Below, piece after piece: positions 1,825 through 53,348 of a stretch of DNA of 64,000 nt; within the stretch, counting starts at the first letter, position 1; each line of letters begins with the position of its first letter. The notes beneath the pieces are model-generated. The model searched no databases. It was not told the DNA's origin and was given only the letters and a program-made list of their open reading frames with translations. Position numbers and translations under genes: made by a program. The stretch is from a virus. The stretch is from positions 48,369 to 112,368 of the IMG/VR virus record IMGVR_UViG_3300028874_000010, one strand, 5' to 3'.

Positions 1825-2586
1825 TTAAGTTTGTACACTATTTTCTTTAAGATTGGCATTATTTATTCTTTCGACCATTTCTTGGATTCGGTCTATTGCT
1901 TCAGAGGCTGGTTTAAACATACACACATCAAATAATCTAGTATCAATATGACCGCCTCGGTCATATTCTTTATTATTTAAGATAGTGTATGATTTGTTTG
2001 GTGAATATCTATTTCCGGCAATATACTTCAATGGAACAACTTCACCTGATGTTCCAATTACTATAATGATATCATTTCTGGATTTGCCGAAAGTTGAAAA
2101 CATTTCTGCATACTTAGGCGCGGGTTCACCGAAGAATACTACACCCGGTTTCACATCTTCTAGAGAACCGCACCTCAGGCAGGGCATATTTAGTTCATAT
2201 GGCGAATACCCTACATCCCAAGTATGCTCGCAGTTTAGACAAGTCATATCTGTAAATTTACCATGGACATGAACTACGTCTTCGCATCCAGCCCGTTCTA
2301 GAAAATCGTCAATGTTCTGGGTATAAATCTTGACATTGTCTTTACCATATTTCTTTTGGATCTCAGCTATCCCTAAGTGGGCCTTATTAGGACTTAAACT
2401 AGGTAACCCTATCCGACGTTCATTATAGAAATCAAATACCAAATTCCTATTTTTCTTGAATACATGGATATTACAAACTATGTCTGGATTATATTTCGTC
2501 CAAAGCCCATCTTCATTATCACGAAATGTAGAAATACCAGATTCAGCTGAAAGTCCAGCACCAGTAAAAATAAGAATTTTATTCAT
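1825..2586 (-). CDS. Sir2-family NAD-dependent protein deacylase
   Basis: Full-length sirtuin of 253 residues. It shows the NAD-binding GAGLSAESGISTFR at the N-terminus, TQNIDDFLERAG, the catalytic HVHG, a four-cysteine zinc ribbon (CLNC ... CLRC), KPGVVFFGE and GTSGEV. All key residues of the class are present, so it should remove acyl groups from lysines using NAD. Bacterial relatives are CobB; some Sir2 domains act as NADases in defence. In a phage it could reset host protein acetylation or act on NAD metabolism; the sequence cannot tell these apart. Confidence 0.93.
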   Translation of the reverse strand: MNKILIFTGAGLSAESGISTFRDNEDGLWTKYNPDIVCNIHVFKKNRNLVFDFYNERRIGLPSLSPNKAHLGIAEIQKKYGKDNVKIYTQNIDDFLERAGCEDVVHVHGKFTDMTCLNCEHTWDVGYSPYELNMPCLRCGSLEDVKPGVVFFGEPAPKYAEMFSTFGKSRNDIIIVIGTSGEVVPLKYIAGNRYSPNKSYTILNNKEYDRGGHIDTRLFDVCMFKPASEAIDRIQEMVERINNANLKENSVQT

Positions 2587-11029: not shown

Positions 11030-11060
11030 AAAAGGAGACTCATTGCGAGTCTCCTTTTTT
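11030..11060. terminator. Bidirectional terminator between convergent genes
   Basis: GGAGACTC / GAGTCTCC stem with flanking A- and T-tracts, serving both the HNH gene (+) and the CCA-adding gene (-). Confidence 0.92.
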
Positions 11061-12159
11061 ATAGTGCATTAATTCTGGCATTAAAGATTAAATCTTTAAT
11101 TTTTGTTTTATCTTCTGTTGATAACGCAATCTCGGCAACATCGACATTCAAAATCTTATCAATATCACTATAAATTAATTCATGCGGCATCAGCCCAACT
11201 CCTTTAACATGTTCGCCGATATATCGACAAGCAGTTAGAACAACTTTGAATCTTTCAGGTCTCCTGAATAAATCAACTCTATTAAACAATTGGACCCGTT
11301 CTCTCTTACTTAATATTTGATATTTAGCAAGAGCCCCGCATTCGTTATTTACCAATGTAGAGACTTGTTCACAATCAACTGAGATAGTCCAACGTTTGTA
11401 ATCTTCTTTATTTTTAAATCCATTTGCTATGATAGCAAATCGAACTTCAAGCGGAGCATTATTCTGAGCTGCTTCATTTAATGAGTGTAGCCCACTGTCA
11501 CGAAGCCACTGACCTGTTGTACGAGTTCCGCCCCCAAACCATTCATTTAAATGATGATTAGCGCCAACATACGACAGTATTACAAACATCGCTGAAGGTC
11601 TTGCTTCCATCAGACCTTTCTTAAATTCCATCCAAACTCGTTCCGGGGTTAATGACTTGAATTCGCCAGAATCTACTATTTGACGCATAAGTTCTATAGT
11701 ATCTTCGTGGATAGTGAACTCGGTATATCTTGCAGCAAATCTGGCGATTCTGAGAACCCGAACCGGATCTTCAGCAAAGGCTTCTGATGTGTGTCGAAGA
11801 ATTTTATTCTTTAAATCTTCTTGGCCACCATACGGGTCAATGACGTTATTGTTTTCATCCATCGCCATCGAGTTGATTGTTAAGTCGCGCCGAAAAAGAT
11901 CTTGCGCTAATGTAACAGTCGGATCAAAGTCAACTTTAAACCCGTTGTACCCAGGAGAAACCTTACGTTCATTTCTGGCTAATGCATATTCTTCACCAGT
12001 GATTGGATGGAGGAAGACCGGAAAGTCTGCACCAACTTGCTGGAAATTAAGTTCCAACATGGCTTCAGTTGTGGCGCCAGTTACCACATAATCTCGATCT
12101 CTGGATTCTATTCCGAGCAGCCGATCCCTAACTGCGCCACCAACTAAATATGTTTTCAT
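11059..12159 (-). CDS. cca: CCA-adding enzyme (tRNA nucleotidyltransferase)
   Basis: 366 residues. The class II nucleotidyltransferase head is clear: [19 protein letters not shown], the neck [26 protein letters not shown] and [15 protein letters not shown]. It adds or repairs the 3' CCA of tRNAs. At least four tRNAs of this phage lack a complete encoded CCA, so the enzyme is useful for them and for tRNA repair. The C-terminus is closer to the bacterial short form without an HD domain. Confidence 0.96.
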
Positions 12160-32046: not shown

Positions 32047-32124
32047 TGGTACCCAATCTCGGATTCGAACCGAGAACATTAAGCTTTTGAAGCTTACGCG
32101 TCTACCAGATTGCGCCAATTGGGC
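32047..32124 (-). tRNA. tRNA-Leu(CAA) with short variable loop
   Basis: 78 nt; loop TTCAAAA gives CAA. The D-arm (GGCGCAATCTGGTAGACGCG) is leucine-like, A73 and CCA are encoded, but the variable loop is only 5 nt (ATGTT) instead of the long arm expected for bacterial Leu tRNAs. Confidence 0.85.
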
Positions 32125-32212
32125 AGTGTAATACGAAAAATTATTTCAATTCTTTAGAAGTCCCAACCAATAGAATTGGCTTATGTAATTATTCATGAAA
32201 TTAATTTGGCAG

Positions 32213-32304
32213 CGGAGGAAGATATGGGATTCGAACCCATGGGCCACCATAAGGCGACCTCCTGTTTAGCAAACAGGTATAATTAACCGCTCTACCAATC
32301 TTCC
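32213..32304 (-). tRNA. tRNA-Ser(GCU)
   Basis: Class II tRNA with long variable arm; loop TTGCTAA. The 3' end reads TCCG, so CCA is incomplete. Confidence 0.92.
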
Positions 32305-32308
32305 TTTG

Positions 32309-32950
32309 TTACTTCTTTTTCATAGCTAGTAATACATATCTGGTTGAATCTTTAGCTGACTTTGCTGGAGTCTTCCAAATCTTTTCATCTGTAATATTCT
32401 TGCCATCATATTTCAATGGACTTCCGGAATCATCAAGGATTACATTTCCGTTGTCAATCACGTATACATCAAATTTATCACCAGAGAACCTCGCTAACTT
32501 TTCCCACAACTTCCTACCACCAATATATTGAGTGTGATCAGAAATCAAAACAAAACCATATTCGACTAAACTTAAATACAAATTGTAGCCGAAGCCATTG
32601 GCTTTTTCTTTACTGTATACTTCAACTACATCTACTTGAAGTACATTCTTAGAAGTTAAAATTTCTTCATCATAAGACAAATCCAGCTTACTTTTAAATT
32701 CTAATTTTCCAATTAGGTTAAGGCCGATTTTTTTATCTTCCTTACGAACAGATAATATGCCAATTACAGCAAAGCTTTTATCTTTTTTCAGGATAGACCA
32801 TACTTCTTCATCATTGACTTTGACCTTCCCGATACTATCAAAATCTCGTTTGATAGTATCTTCAGAATAAAATCGCATAGTACCAGACATTACAACAGGC
32901 ATTTCTTTGTCGATAAATTCTGGCATTTCAAATAGCTCTTCTATTTTCAT
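32309..32950 (-). CDS. Putative internal head protein, GNAT-like fold, 213 aa
   Basis: Starts MKIEELFEMPEFID with an L-F-E site; the upstream in-frame Met lies in the preceding gene. The C-terminus YNLYLSLVEYGFVLISDHTQ and RKLWEKLARFSG defines a family with genes near 24.8, 29.7 and 30.5 kb. It overlaps no neighbour and is followed by tRNA-Ser(GCU), probably on one transcript. Confidence 0.65.
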   Translation of the reverse strand: MKIEELFEMPEFIDKEMPVVMSGTMRFYSEDTIKRDFDSIGKVKVNDEEVWSILKKDKSFAVIGILSVRKEDKKIGLNLIGKLEFKSKLDLSYDEEILTSKNVLQVDVVEVYSKEKANGFGYNLYLSLVEYGFVLISDHTQYIGGRKLWEKLARFSGDKFDVYVIDNGNVILDDSGSPLKYDGKNITDEKIWKTPAKSAKDSTRYVLLAMKKK

Positions 32951-32954
32951 AATC

Positions 32955-33395
32955 TTATAGTTTCTTGGTTTCAGACAATAGAAGTTTATCAATATAAATC
33001 ACAACTTCTTGTTCATCACCATAACCTTCTTCTAATTCTTGATCGGCTAATTTATGTAATTCTTCAGGAGTGAATTCATTTACACCTTTAACAAATTCCA
33101 ACCAATCTTCTTTATCCATCCCAGTCACATGGACTAATAATGAATTTTTTTCAAGCCAATCAAGATTGTATTCGACCTTCACAATCTTAGCGTGTCGTTT
33201 CAATAATTTTTTGACATTAAGCTCTAATAAAATATTGCCGAAATCTTCTGTCTGATTTGCTTCTTTATCTGGAGTCGCACACAATGTACCGCGTTTAAAA
33301 GTCAATTCTCCTGTACTAGTTAATGTATGATATTGAGCATCACCCATGCGATGGTACAATTTAGTATACGGCGAAGCAAGTTCATATAATTTCAT
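32955..33395 (-). CDS. Hypothetical protein, 146 aa, CTS-like start
   Basis: Starts MKLYELASPYTKLYHRMG. Contains GDAQYHTLTSTGELTFKRG and a final acidic helix. The HRMG-x-A-x-YH opening is a common phage motif resembling ADP-ribosyltransferase-like folds, but I cannot confirm active residues. It lies between tRNA-Ser(CGA) and the GNAT-like gene. Confidence 0.55.
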   Translation of the reverse strand: MKLYELASPYTKLYHRMGDAQYHTLTSTGELTFKRGTLCATPDKEANQTEDFGNILLELNVKKLLKRHAKIVKVEYNLDWLEKNSLLVHVTGMDKEDWLEFVKGVNEFTPEELHKLADQELEEGYGDEQEVVIYIDKLLLSETKKL

Positions 33396-33429
33396 TTTAT
33401 ACATCTGATTTCATTTTATTGATATGAAC

Positions 33430-33524
33430 TGGCGGAGGACCGGGGTCTCGAACCCCGACGTCTTATTAGGGACACACTACGTTCGAAGTAGTTTCCGCTA
33501 GGCCAAAACTCGGATAAGTCCTCC
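33430..33524 (-). tRNA. tRNA-Ser(CGA)
   Basis: Class II with long variable arm; loop TTCGAAC. Encoded GCCA end. Confidence 0.9.
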
Positions 33525-33529
33525 AATCT

Positions 33530-33787
33530 TTAATCTTCAATGAAAATCGTAAGGTCATCACTGCTCCAATCGAAATTCAAAAGCTCGACTTTATACTTCT
33601 TAGCCAATGTCCTTGCATCGGCTTCAAATGCATCCATATCATGTTCAGCAGCTTGGTTAGTGAGATATAGCTTAATTTCATCGTCACTGGTTTCAGCTGT
33701 ATCGGCTGGGATATGATGCTTCTTTGCTAACTCTTCAAGAGCCACAACAAAACTCTTTTTACCTTCAAAAATCTCTGCTATTTTCAT
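33530..33787 (-). CDS. Putative internal head protein, 85 aa
   Basis: Starts MKIAEIFEGKKSF with an I-F-E site at residues 6-8, then an acidic helical/beta body. A GATAAATA promoter is 28 nt upstream. Followed directly by tRNA-Ser(CGA). Confidence 0.6.
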   Translation of the reverse strand: MKIAEIFEGKKSFVVALEELAKKHHIPADTAETSDDEIKLYLTNQAAEHDMDAFEADARTLAKKYKVELLNFDWSSDDLTIFIED

Positions 33788-33814
33788 TACTATCCTTGAA
33801 ATAAATGGTTACTT

Positions 33815-33822
33815 TATTTATC
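33815..33822 (-). promoter_or_regulatory. Late-type promoter (GATAAATA)
   Basis: 28 nt upstream of the MKIAEIFE gene; probably drives the mixed tRNA and protein unit down to 32 kb. Confidence 0.55.
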
Positions 33823-33847
33823 TCCATTCTATCATAAAAACAAGGTA

Positions 33848-33924
33848 TGGTCCCCATCCTCAGCTTCGAACTGAGAACATTATCCTTTTAAGGGATACGC
33901 GTCTTCCAATTGCGCCAGATGGGG
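33848..33924 (-). tRNA. tRNA-Leu(UAA) with short variable loop
   Basis: 77 nt; loop CTTAAAA. Leucine-type D-arm GGCGCAATTGGAAGACGCG, A73, CCA encoded, 5-nt variable loop. Confidence 0.85.
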
Positions 33925-33925
33925 A

Positions 33926-34017
33926 TGGAGGAAAAGATGGGATTCGAACCCATGGACCCACTTTCGCGAGCCGTTAGTTTTCAAGACTAATGCAATAACC
34001 CGCTCTGCCACTCTTCC
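33926..34017 (-). tRNA. tRNA-Ser(UGA), second copy
   Basis: Class II with long variable arm; loop CTTGAAA; encoded CCA. Same anticodon as the gene at 20.8 kb but different body sequence. Confidence 0.9.
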
Positions 34018-34142
34018 ATTTGTTATAATAAATACCGTCTATGACGGCACCTCACTTCTATTCACTGCAGCTATCACTTATGAAGGCCTTGGTGAAATGT
34101 ATAAAGAGTTTTTGAAGTAATATCAATACTTCATAAAACATT

Positions 34143-34228
34143 TGGTGCACGTTATAGGATTCGAACCTATTCAGGCACAAGGCCCACGCGTTTACAGCGC
34201 GCTTATCTCTCCAGAGGATTGAACGTAC
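34143..34228 (-). tRNA. tRNA-Tyr(GUA)
   Basis: Class II; loop CTGTAAA; A73 and CCA encoded. Confidence 0.9.
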
Positions 34229-34238
34229 ATTATAAAAC

Positions 34239-34266
34239 TGGTGGACCACCTAGGTAACGATCCTTC
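34239..34266 (-). other. Orphan 3' half of a tRNA
   Basis: T-arm with loop ATCGTTA followed by GGTGGTCC-ACCA. No matching 5' half (GGACCAC) lies upstream. A 15-nt stretch is identical to the T-arm of the Met-like tRNA near 54.3 kb. Confidence 0.5.
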
Positions 34267-34276
34267 CATTTATTAC

Positions 34277-34366
34277 TGGTGAATGTCGATAGGAATTGAA
34301 CCTTCTTTGGCCTATTAAGGCATCAGCTTATCGGCTGACCGCGCTACCATTACGCACTACACATTC
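34277..34366 (-). tRNA. Abnormal class II tRNA, anticodon undetermined (GAU-like)
   Basis: 90 nt with acceptor GAATGT / ACATTC, encoded ACCA, D-arm GTGCGTAATGGTAGCGC and a GCCT/AGGC variable hairpin. The anticodon stem TCAGC / GCTGA closes a 6-nt loop CGATAA that lacks U33. The closest reading is an Ile GAU with one base missing. Could be a degenerate or specialised tRNA. Confidence 0.55.
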
Positions 34367-34395
34367 ATTACTTCTTATCTACAACTTAGCAATTT

Positions 34396-34470
34396 TGGAG
34401 ACGCTACGGAGAATTGAACTCGCGATTTATTCCTTGAAAGGGAATTTTCCTACCTTTAGAAGATAGCGTC
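34396..34470 (-). tRNA. tRNA-Glu(UUC)
   Basis: 75 nt; loop CTTTCAA; perfect acceptor GACGCTA / TAGCGTC, CCA encoded. The T-stem has two mismatches. Confidence 0.82.
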
Positions 34471-34482
34471 ATAATAAAACTT

Positions 34483-34556
34483 TGGCAGGCTTGCGGGGAA
34501 TCAAACCCCAGTCAGCGGTTTTGGAGACCGTTATGTTATCACTACACTACAAACCT
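34483..34556 (-). tRNA. tRNA-Trp(CCA)
   Basis: 74 nt; loop CTCCAAA; G73 and encoded CCA as expected for Trp. Confidence 0.9.
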
Positions 34557-34568
34557 ATTAAAACATTT

Positions 34569-34659
34569 TGGTGGGTTGGAAAGGAATTGAACCTATACAG
34601 ACTTATTGACATCGCGTCGCGTTTACAGCGCGGGGAGCTCACCAGTGCTCAGCCAACCC
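34569..34659 (-). tRNA. tRNA-Tyr(GUA), second copy
   Basis: Class II with a long variable arm; loop CTGTAAA; perfect acceptor GGGTTGG / CCAACCC; CCA encoded. Confidence 0.9.
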
Positions 34660-34726
34660 ATTTACTAAGTGCATTCAGATAAAAACTCTGGCATGTATTC
34701 CTATTCCATCACATGTGCATTCGTAA

Positions 34727-34916
34727 TTAATTTAAAGTTGAAGTCTACAAAATTTGTATGAGGATTCGAACCCATGTCTCCGACTTTCAAGATCGGCGCC
34801 TTACCACTTGGCCAACAAATTCAGAAATTTCAAATCTTGGCGCGTCAACACCAAGATCACTTATTCAGGTAGACTCAACTGTCGAAACAGTTGACGCTAT
34901 TTCAACTTTAAATTAA
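34727..34916 (-). ncRNA. Structured RNA enclosing a tRNA-like domain
   Basis: Leader and trailer of the tRNA-like gene inside are complementary: a perfect 16-bp pair (34727-34742 with 34901-34916) continued by GTCTAC / GTAGAC (34743-34748 with 34869-34874). The leader arm carries an extra CAACTGT-CGAA-ACAGTTG hairpin, and a further ATCTTGG / CCAAGAT hairpin lies next to the tRNA. The whole looks like one folded RNA of about 190 nt. Confidence 0.5.
34750..34821 (-). tRNA. Class I tRNA with UGA anticodon (Ser-like anticodon, Gln-like D-arm)
   Basis: About 71 nt; acceptor AATTTGT / ACAAATT; loop CTTGAAA gives UGA; variable loop is short; no CCA encoded. The D-arm GGCCAAGTGGTAAGGC resembles tRNA-Gln. 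Charging identity is unclear. Confidence 0.7.
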
Positions 34917-34923
34917 CTACTCG

Positions 34924-35000
34924 TGGTGGCCATCCTCGGACTCGAACCGAGAACATTTACGCTCTAAACGTAACGCGTCTTCCAATTGCGCCAGACGGCC
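34924..35000 (-). tRNA. tRNA-Leu(UAG) with short variable loop
   Basis: 77 nt; loop TTTAGAG; leucine-type D-arm, A73, CCA encoded; 5-nt variable loop ATGTT. Confidence 0.85.
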
Positions 35001-35032: not shown

Positions 35033-35064
35033 AAAAGGCGAATCGTTTAGGATTCGCCTTGATG
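35033..35064 (-). terminator. Intrinsic terminator after small late gene
   Basis: GGCGAATC / GATTCGCC stem followed by six T on the minus strand. Confidence 0.88.
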
Positions 35065-37750: not shown

Positions 37751-38119
37751 TTATTTTTTACTTCTAAAATATGATGTCAAGTACCCATTAATATTTAAGG
37801 CGCCAGCGGGATTACTTGAATGAACACTCCAAGTAAAATTATTTGGCAGTTCATGAAGGCCATCCAATTCACCATCAACTAGCCACTTAGCGAAATCATA
37901 TCCGGATTTCGCTTCTTGACCGAGATCTGTGATCAAACCTTCGGGACCCGGTTGAAGCATATCCCACCCCAAATCATGATCGAATGCAACATGCAATGGC
38001 GGGCCGTAATTTTTACAGAACATAACGGCTTCATCAAAACTTCTAGCGACTAGATATTTCCGGCCATCATTAACATATTCCGGATTTCGTATGTCGTCAA
38101 TAAATAAATTCCAGTTCAA
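37751..38119 (-). CDS. cREC (cyclic-phosphate-processing receiver-like) protein
   Basis: 122 residues from a TTG start overlapping the upstream stop. NLFIDDIRNP (receiver acid pair), ARSFDEAV, VAFDHDLG and VHSSNPAGALNI match the cREC domain, a receiver-like fold linked to RNA-repair and nucleotide-signal operons. Its substrate is not established. Confidence 0.75.
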   Translation of the reverse strand: MNWNLFIDDIRNPEYVNDGRKYLVARSFDEAVMFCKNYGPPLHVAFDHDLGWDMLQPGPEGLITDLGQEAKSGYDFAKWLVDGELDGLHELPNNFTWSVHSSNPAGALNINGYLTSYFRSKK

Positions 38120-38120
38120 A

Positions 38121-38360
38121 TTAGCCGCCCAATACCAAAAATGTTTTGTTGTAATGCAGTTGACCTGGCTTAATGAATCTGGAGCCACGAAGATCAGTAA
38201 ATTCGACATTGCTATCATCGCCATCAAGAATCAAATCTACAGTAGAAACAGAAGTATGCCAGTCACCGCGGTGTTCTTTGAGAACTTCCAAGATCACATC
38301 TTCCGGAAGTGTTTGAAGATATGCGATCAATTCATCACGAGTTGCTCTTTTATTTTTCAT
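38121..38360 (-). CDS. Hypothetical protein, 79 aa
   Basis: Starts MKNKRATRDELIAYLQTLPED by ATGA overlap with the upstream stop. The RxELIxxLQxLPxD opening followed by a beta-rich domain is common in small phage proteins. Function unknown. Confidence 0.65.
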   Translation of the reverse strand: MKNKRATRDELIAYLQTLPEDVILEVLKEHRGDWHTSVSTVDLILDGDDSNVEFTDLRGSRFIKPGQLHYNKTFLVLGG

Positions 38361-40780: not shown

Positions 40781-41221
40781 TCACTTTTGGTGAAGTGTAT
40801 CCCAAAACTTTTCCATGATTTTCATTGAGGCTTCATCTGGGTGAACCCACTCTGGTACCGCTGGATGATTTACTTCCCACAATCGATATGTGTTTCTAAT
40901 CGTTCTTCCAACAGTCGAATGCAATTTAATCAAATCTTCTTTTTTAATACTAGTCCAAGCCTCTATACCTTTATCATCCATATTATTTTTTAAATCGGCC
41001 ACAATTTCGTCGACCGTCATAAAGGCTTTCTCTTCAATAACTTCTTCGTATGGTTCTAAATCTTCATCACTAAGCTTCTTATCAGCCACATCATAAATAT
41101 CACTGACAAATTGTGAAATTTCAATATAGTCACCACTCCAGCCATATCTCTTAGCTACTTCAAGAAGTGTTGTTAAGAATTCCGGAGTTGCTAAAGTTTT
41201 AATTATTGCTGTATTATTCAT
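40781..41221 (-). CDS. Hypothetical protein, 146 aa
   Basis: Acidic helical protein; its start overlaps the RNA ligase stop by 4 bp. Function unknown, but co-translation suggests a partner of the ligase or phosphatase. Confidence 0.6.
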   Translation of the reverse strand: MNNTAIIKTLATPEFLTTLLEVAKRYGWSGDYIEISQFVSDIYDVADKKLSDEDLEPYEEVIEEKAFMTVDEIVADLKNNMDDKGIEAWTSIKKEDLIKLHSTVGRTIRNTYRLWEVNHPAVPEWVHPDEASMKIMEKFWDTLHQK

Positions 41222-41898
41222 CCTTCCCTCAATGTGTTTTTGTCAGTTTTAAAAAACCAATGGCCATCTTCAGTCTTAACATGATTTGCTCTAACACATT
41301 TCGCCGCATTCTTTTTCATATCATTGTAATGAAAAGATTGAGCATTAGAGATAACATACCCTTCATCTTTTTCTGGATCTAATCCAAACCCAAGATGCTT
41401 GACTGGAACTATACTCAAAGCAAGATGCATCAAGTTCAAATCTTTGAATGATCCTCTTTTTAAAACAGGGACCATACTCAAATCAAGACATTCACAAAAT
41501 TCTTGCATATCATCTAGTGACAATCTAGTATTTGTTTCATCCCAGATGGCAAACACATAAAAGAAAGACTCTAGATCATGATAAGGAATTGAGTGAAGAG
41601 CTAACATATTCTCGCCGCAGATTCTCCAACCATCGGGAATATCTCTATAAAGTAATGCAGCTAGTTGTTTGATATGATGGCGTGACCAATGATCTTTTGA
41701 ATCTAATGATCTTGCGTGGGAATATCCTCTGCCAATAGTGGTATTCTCACCATCCATTTTTAAGGATGCATAACAGTCTTCCATCGGAATGAAATATTCT
41801 ATCAATTCTTGATTAGTCAGAATTTTGTCATCTGATGTAGAAGATTGAGTCCATGGCAAATGGAAAGTCGTTGGGAATTTATATTCTGGTGTATTCAT
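41218..41898 (-). CDS. RNA ligase (nucleotidyltransferase family)
   Basis: 226 residues. The adenylation motif KMDGEN (K-x-D-G) near residue 47, RICGENMLALHSIPY, FFYVFAIWD (motif III), EGYVIS (motif IV) and KCVRANH (motif V) are all present. It should seal RNA, for example tRNA cut in the anticodon loop. Its partner genes (histidine phosphatase downstream of its start by 4-bp overlap, 2H phosphoesterases elsewhere) could supply end-healing. Confidence 0.85.
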   Translation of the reverse strand: MNTPEYKFPTTFHLPWTQSSTSDDKILTNQELIEYFIPMEDCYASLKMDGENTTIGRGYSHARSLDSKDHWSRHHIKQLAALLYRDIPDGWRICGENMLALHSIPYHDLESFFYVFAIWDETNTRLSLDDMQEFCECLDLSMVPVLKRGSFKDLNLMHLALSIVPVKHLGFGLDPEKDEGYVISNAQSFHYNDMKKNAAKCVRANHVKTEDGHWFFKTDKNTLREG

Positions 41899-53270: not shown

Positions 53271-53348
53271 TGGTAGTCTGTATCGGATTCGAACCGATGA
53301 CCTACTGTTTTGAAGACAGATGCTCTAACCAGACTAAGCTAACAGACC
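53271..53348 (-). tRNA. tRNA-Glu(UUC), second copy
   Basis: 78 nt; loop CTTCAAA gives UUC; A73, CCA encoded; G1-U72 pair. Confidence 0.85.

Follow-up and report, generated by a model that had tools for sequence, protein, structure and literature searches.

Leucine tRNAs without the long variable arm in a phage tRNA cluster, and their recurrence in phages and bacteria

We describe transfer RNA genes for leucine (tRNA-Leu) that lack the long variable arm of class II tRNAs, in a stretch of viral DNA of 64,000 nucleotides (nt), here called the window (positions 48369-112368 of the 112,368-bp IMG/VR virus record IMGVR_UViG_3300028874_000010, which is probably a fragment). All Leu tRNAs in the window, with anticodons CAA, UAA and UAG, are short-armed, as ARAGORN, Rfam covariance alignment and hand parsing agree, and the same form recurs in other phages and in bacterial tRNA arrays. 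Judged from sequence comparison, these are likely to be functional leucine tRNAs that were remodelled from class II into class I and are charged by the leucyl-tRNA synthetase (LeuRS) of the host.

The three genes are 77-78 nt long according to ARAGORN and all score above the gathering score of 29 of Rfam model RF00005. Their acceptor, anticodon and T stems are perfect (7/5/5 bp, G-U counted as pairs). Where a class II tRNA has a variable region of at least 10 nt forming an arm, they have the 5-nt sequence ATGTT, which, flanked by intact anticodon and T stems of 5 bp each, fits the class I layout with its variable loop of 4-5 nt. Just 5 nt separate the anticodon stem from the T stem in the Rfam alignments of the CAA and UAG copies, and the loop is unpaired both when the UAA copy is folded thermodynamically and in the centroid of the CAA copy, which leaves no hidden longer arm. 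Folding energies of the Leu copies are only mildly better than those of shuffled sequences (z about -1.7 to -2.3). An earlier note on this DNA had reported the ATGTT loop for all three anticodons, together with A73 and an encoded CCA end. ARAGORN, the covariance alignment and the parse bear out the loop, the parse bears out A73 and CCA, covariance-model alignment and folding disclosed no longer variable arm, and the departure from the class II form stated for bacterial tRNA-Leu is thus real.

All three genes contain A73, the trans Levitt pair A15-U48, the D-loop bases G18 G19 and A20a, and U8-A14. The canonical 13-22 pair, which is usual but not universal in class I tRNAs, is absent: C13 and A22 are present in each gene, and the Rfam alignment flags the pair as non-standard. 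The D-arm was described in the earlier note as that of bacterial tRNA-Leu. Its type is indeed leucine-like, but its exact letters differ from those given, being GGCGCAAT...AGACGCG, with C13 where class II tRNA-Leu has G13, and in the UAA and UAG genes it reads GGAAGACGCG, not GGTAGACGCG. With variable loop and anticodon excluded, the three genes are mutually 73-76% identical, about the same as their identity to Leu tRNAs of other phages (70-76%). This comparison does not decide for the single origin that the earlier note suggested, and neither does their shared loop, the commonest one of the survey described below. An exact-sequence search of IMG/VR for the window's own tRNA-Leu form gave 0 matches.

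To describe the form beyond the window we assembled 213 short-armed tRNA-Leu copies (145 from GTDB, 68 viral). Short-armed, or class I, here means that a parsed sequence has a variable loop no longer than 6 nt or, in quick counts, that the gene does not exceed 80 nt. The pairs of the acceptor, anticodon and T stems and of D positions 10-12 form in 93-100% of copies, with 3-6 pair types at every paired position but one. Intact pairing combined with several pair types indicates that these are real, selected tRNAs. The short loop is exactly 5 nt long in 189/213 copies, and its sequence is free to vary apart from U48; ATGTT is the commonest version of the whole survey (22/213). Because one part of the determinants (G18G19 and A20a) was imposed on the seed copies by the search patterns, the usable figures for the determinants come from the 103 non-seed copies. 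Among these, the full set of A14, A15-U48, G18G19, A20a and A73 is present in 88/103, as against 94/1490 class I tRNAs for other amino acids; A15-U48 is found in 98/103 and A73 in 101/103. Divided by source, A15-U48 is present in 145/145 GTDB and 63/68 viral short-armed copies, and A73 in 143/145 and 67/68, respectively. Survey counts, including those for position 13, are uncorrected for relatedness, and a Fisher value computed on them is not readable as a probability.

Position 13 distinguishes the two shapes of tRNA-Leu. C13 occurs in 52/68 viral class I copies and in 0/142 viral class II copies, all of which have G, A or T. A first scan that left position 13 unconstrained found C in 27 of 29 distinct class I sequences, the other two being one G and one truncated sequence. 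C13 stands opposite A22, and CA at 13/22 is the commonest state of the survey (161/213). Since C13 is seen with different D stems (GCG, GCC, GTC, TCC and CCC), it was not carried along by one D-arm. The short-armed copies also retain G21 and A22, two bases typical of class II tRNA-Leu that other class I tRNAs seldom have; the source was therefore a leucine tRNA and not a class I tRNA that had acquired a new anticodon. Origin by anticodon change can be ruled out on these two positions together with the Leu-like A15-U48.

The short-armed form is widespread. A pattern scan of IMG/VR for the exact D-arm GGTAGACGCG at class I spacing returned 34 stretches, a complete count, and the same D-arm with class II spacing was found in at least 120. 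For an unselected sample, we used an Asn/Lys tRNA pattern, blind to Leu type, to draw approximately 120 phage loci and annotated them with ARAGORN. They contained 10 short and 35 long tRNA-Leu (10/45 short), and short forms made up 0/28 of tRNA-Ser and 0/11 of tRNA-Tyr. Over all samples, tRNA-Ser was long-armed in 28/28 and 30/30 phage copies and in 70/71 copies of the GTDB loci, and tRNA-Tyr in 11/11 and 6/6 phage copies and in 28/28 of the GTDB loci. Arm loss is thus confined to Leu. Mixed loci are common, for example with a short CAA gene beside long UAA and UAG genes in one phage array. The form is present in phages related to that of the window, and related huge phages carry both short and long tRNA-Leu. 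It also occurs in cultured phages, namely Sugarland and its relatives (Klebsiella), SPLA5a (Salmonella), My1 (Pectobacterium) and VH7D (Vibrio; two copies); GenBank labels several of these phage genes plainly as 'tRNA-Leu'. T5 was considered as a relative with the short form and ruled out, its sole Leu tRNA being class II.

Among 84,980 GTDB genomes, short-armed tRNA-Leu was found in 77 stretches, and nearly all proved to be full cloverleafs when read. These stretches belong to many bacterial phyla and include large Flavobacterium and Streptomyces contigs and, as complete chromosomes, Limnoglobus roseus and Minicystis rosea. Most are tRNA arrays, many of them dense, with up to five short Leu isoacceptors. 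Long-armed Leu genes were detected elsewhere in four of six bacterial genomes checked (two Flavobacterium, Minicystis and Thiodiazotropha) with a narrow pattern, so that the remaining two provide no evidence of absence. In one Thiodiazotropha locus (L137:1286-1358) ARAGORN calls, near a short-armed Leu gene, a tRNA with anticodon UUA, which would read the stop codon UAA.

These results can be set against what is known of the synthetases. E. coli LeuRS depends on A73, A15-U48, G18G19 and A20a; the sequence and fold of the arm are uncorrelated with charging, truncated variants without an arm are active, and recognition of the arm by its sequence is peculiar to archaea, according to a review of tRNA identity (PMC9976931). 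Bacterial SerRS reads the long arm and accepts only class II tRNAs (PMC7609411). Loss in Leu and retention in Ser fit an arm-independent LeuRS and an arm-dependent SerRS; Tyr keeps its arm as well. As the pattern is one that these rules allow, the simplest mechanism would be that host LeuRS still charges the short-armed form. An ordinary class II tRNA-Leu would have lost its long variable arm while retaining the arm-independent LeuRS determinants, and its core would have readjusted, most visibly from G13 to C13. Once transcribed and charged, such tRNAs would decode the UUA, UUG and CUN codons of phage mRNAs, as part of a phage tRNA cluster that may supplement or replace host tRNAs. UUA, UUG and CUA make up 59% of the Leu codons in the window. 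The suggestion of the earlier note that synthetase recognition might be altered finds no support, given that every published E. coli LeuRS determinant is present and that this enzyme charges arm-less variants (PMC9976931).

It is highly improbable that the short-armed tRNAs work with a dedicated phage LeuRS. Four carriers of the short form (the window's record, W01, G001 and Sugarland) gave no LeuRS match; there was none among G000, G001, W01 and W04, and W03 gave only weak, paralogous (MetRS) matches. As a general explanation a dedicated enzyme is ruled out by this lack of a match in most of the records searched. What speaks for it is a reduced LeuRS-like gene in the 634-kb phage W02 (LR745206; L380:1537-3318), for which NCBIfam leuS_bact is the best match with 390 bits, below cut-off. 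This gene contains an in-frame TAA, which counts against it and splits it into 422 and 169 codons. The match skips profile positions ~222-410, which we take to be the editing-domain region. Also encoded by this phage are a ValRS-like protein and an IleRS that exceeds the curated cut-off.

The reading as host-charged leucine tRNAs with a readjusted core is not favoured by every observation. Approximately one quarter of the short-armed copies have G, A or T at position 13, and C13 is accordingly a strong tendency, not a requirement. The LeuRS of lineages other than E. coli, perhaps including that of the host of this phage, may need the arm. Given the LeuRS-like gene of W02, an enzyme of the phage could also play a part in certain cases.

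It is very unlikely that we are dealing with pseudogenes, or with tRNA-like RNAs of a non-leucine or regulatory kind. The cluster does contain at least one degenerate tRNA-like gene (34749-34822), as well as a weak Rfam match of 25.3 bits near 34283, but the short-armed tRNA-Leu have intact stems, CCA and A73, retain the determinant set and show broad covariation, all of which speaks against such a reading.

Two accounts concern the cause of arm loss, and each is compatible with host-charged leucine tRNAs on a class I frame. According to the first, loss was neutral or driven by compaction: LeuRS tolerates it, fast-evolving tRNAs of phages and arrays shed the arm and the core compensates later, with no specific benefit. 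The arm-independence of LeuRS would explain why Leu alone changes, mixed short and long loci are common, and loop sequences are unconstrained outside U48. The recurrence of C13, the tight loop length and the many lineages concerned argue instead for selection, albeit on the class I fold and not on a benefit. We consider the chances of this account evenly balanced; tolerated loss is the explanation that requires no further assumption.

According to the second, which we regard as unlikely, the loss was an adaptation by which tRNA-cleaving or tRNA-modifying effectors that read the class II Leu arm are evaded while LeuRS binding is kept. In its favour, the window encodes a cREC protein, an RNA ligase and a CCA-adding enzyme (Table 1), and the latter two are also present in each of the four related huge-phage records (W01-W03 and G001). 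For the altered nuclease recognition that the earlier note considered possible, these repair genes make a context of tRNA damage plausible and prove nothing on the arm. Within 8 kb of the 77 bacterial loci with short-armed Leu, RtcB is found at 7, RNA ligase at 5 and band-7/SPFH at 12; the five RNA ligases are from Flavobacterium and adjoin the short Leu gene. In addition, the two Flavobacterium, Minicystis and Thiodiazotropha hold long-armed Leu elsewhere, so that their short ones look accessory. Against evasion, no effector that reads the Leu variable arm has been identified, Sugarland carries the short form without RNA ligase or CCA enzyme, tRNA-Ser shares the long arm yet did not change, and the neighbourhood counts come from short-armed arrays alone, without matched control arrays. 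A related proposal is that arm-less tRNA-Leu form a distinct selected class in the tRNA-damage response, invisible to arm-reading effectors, still accepted by LeuRS, and travelling with RNA ligase, RtcB and CCA-adding enzyme. We hold this to be quite unlikely, and the repair-gene neighbourhood is a lead only, because matched controls are lacking and Sugarland has neither ligase nor CCA enzyme. Arrays beside RtcB, RNA ligase or band-7/SPFH include L126, L136, L112, L074 and L096 (Flavobacterium), L128, L097 and L133 (Thiodiazotropha and relatives), and L106, L087, L084 and L077; these look like tRNA repair or replacement islands.

The Leu(UAG) gene is the first of the window tRNA cluster, whose other members are listed in Table 1. 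The Ser and Tyr tRNAs of the window are long-armed, except for one degenerate-looking Ser(UGA)-like gene, which argues against a general shortening of tRNAs in this phage. That gene folds no better than shuffles (z +0.45) and is probably degenerate. The Ser(CGA)-like gene has the stems ACTAC/GTAGT, the loop TTCGAAC, the acceptor GGAGGAC/GTCCTCC and a GCCA end. The weak Rfam match mentioned above (34280-34366, minus strand) has a long variable region, is without U33 in the anticodon loop and is probably a decayed class II tRNA. By its position directly upstream of Leu(UAG), the terminator-like hairpin suggests that the tRNA cluster is transcribed as a unit of its own, of which it is likely to be the boundary, a consensus match alone being no proof of function.

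Table 1. Features of the window (positions of the window)
Feature	Position	Strand	Remarks
CCA-adding/repair tRNA nucleotidyltransferase	11059..12159	minus	Pfam PF01743 3e-21; NCBIfam PRK10885 377 bits, below cut-off 451
tRNA-Leu(CAA)	32047..32124	minus	class I, loop ATGTT, A73, CCA encoded; ARAGORN, Rfam 58.4 bits, parse
tRNA-Ser(GCU)	32214..32304	minus	class II, 20-nt variable region; ARAGORN, parse, Rfam alignment
tRNA-Ser(CGA)-like	33430..33524	minus	long variable region; by eye; called neither by ARAGORN nor by Rfam at gathering score
tRNA-Leu(UAA)	33848..33924	minus	class I, loop ATGTT, A73, CCA encoded; ARAGORN, Rfam 49.6 bits, parse
tRNA-Ser(UGA)	33926..34017	minus	class II; ARAGORN, parse, Rfam
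tRNA-Tyr(GUA)	34143..34228	minus	class II; ARAGORN, parse
tRNA with anticodon UUC (Glu)	34396..34470	minus	Rfam 47.9 bits; anticodon by eye; missed by ARAGORN
tRNA-Trp(CCA)	34483..34556	minus	ARAGORN, Rfam
Second tRNA-Tyr(GUA)	34569..34659	minus	class II; ARAGORN, parse
Short Ser(UGA)-like tRNA gene	34749..34822	minus	short variable region, T-stem mismatch, without CCA
tRNA-Leu(UAG)	34924..35000	minus	class I, loop ATGTT, A73, CCA encoded; ARAGORN, Rfam 51.4 bits, parse
Intrinsic-terminator-like hairpin	35035..35060	minus	10 bp and T tract, strong; consensus scan; directly upstream of Leu(UAG)
cREC receiver-like domain protein (predicted cyclic-phosphate processing)	37751..38227	minus	Pfam PF20274 1.3e-19
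RNA ligase	41218..41898	minus	Pfam PF09414 1.1e-23

Within the source record, Rfam tRNA matches are confined to the part covered by the window. No similarity to phage genomes was found at the DNA level. At the protein level, the YeaG-like kinase of the window is 58-60% identical to those of the huge phages LR756502, LR745206 and LR756504 (634-642 kb), and window proteins also match G001, a virus record of 184,871 bp with 51 tRNA matches. A further tRNA with anticodon UCA, which would read UGA, lies at 53271-53348 on the minus strand (78 nt, A73, class I loop AGGTC) and is called SeC by ARAGORN. Wholesale UGA recoding is ruled out, as TGA ends 24 of 66 long minus-strand open reading frames; reading of UGA by this tRNA would be partial suppression at most. 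The window also encodes a SIR2 protein (1825-2586, minus strand) and, elsewhere, a NADAR domain protein, possible NAD or ADP-ribose conflict genes.

The window genes share with bacterial class II tRNA-Leu the Leu anticodons, A73, A15-U48, G18G19, A20a, G21, A22 and the D-arm sequence, and differ from it in a variable region of 5 nt instead of approximately 11-18 nt and, across the short-armed form, in a position 13 at which C mostly takes the place of G or A. Animal mitochondrial tRNA-Leu(UUR) is likewise without a long arm and is charged by mitochondrial LeuRS mainly via A73 and A14 (PMC9976931); the present genes differ in belonging to phages and bacteria, in their full-strength cloverleaf and in their bacterial Leu D-arm. 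The laboratory-truncated E. coli tRNA-Leu of Larkin et al. (2002), as cited in PMC9976931, resembles them in that the arm was removed, A73 and the D/T-loop contacts were kept and charging was retained, whereas the change described here is natural, recurrent and accompanied by C13. Bacterial allo-tRNAs are also natural departures from the standard class layout, but their variable arm is longer and their acceptor/T branch altered (8/4 or 9/3; PMC7609411), unlike the 7/5 branch and lost arm seen here. By every sequence determinant examined the short-armed form is tRNA-Leu, yet it is not class II, and its C13/A22 core is unusual for class I. A 2023 review allows short-armed tRNA-Leu in animal mitochondria only. 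We found no earlier report of the form from phages or bacteria in the open-licence literature; an older or subscription report is possible.

Where programs or curators rely on the long arm to identify Leu tRNAs, these genes would be misjudged, and the genes themselves are short natural Leu scaffolds usable in tRNA engineering. Arm-less and arm-bearing tRNA-Leu further provide a ready test pair for asking whether tRNA-targeting defences read the arm. With approximately one fifth of phage Leu tRNAs in the unselected sample, and those of bacterial arrays, being arm-less, the long-arm rule for bacterial Leu is contradicted, and the laboratory result that E. coli LeuRS does without the arm acquires a natural counterpart.

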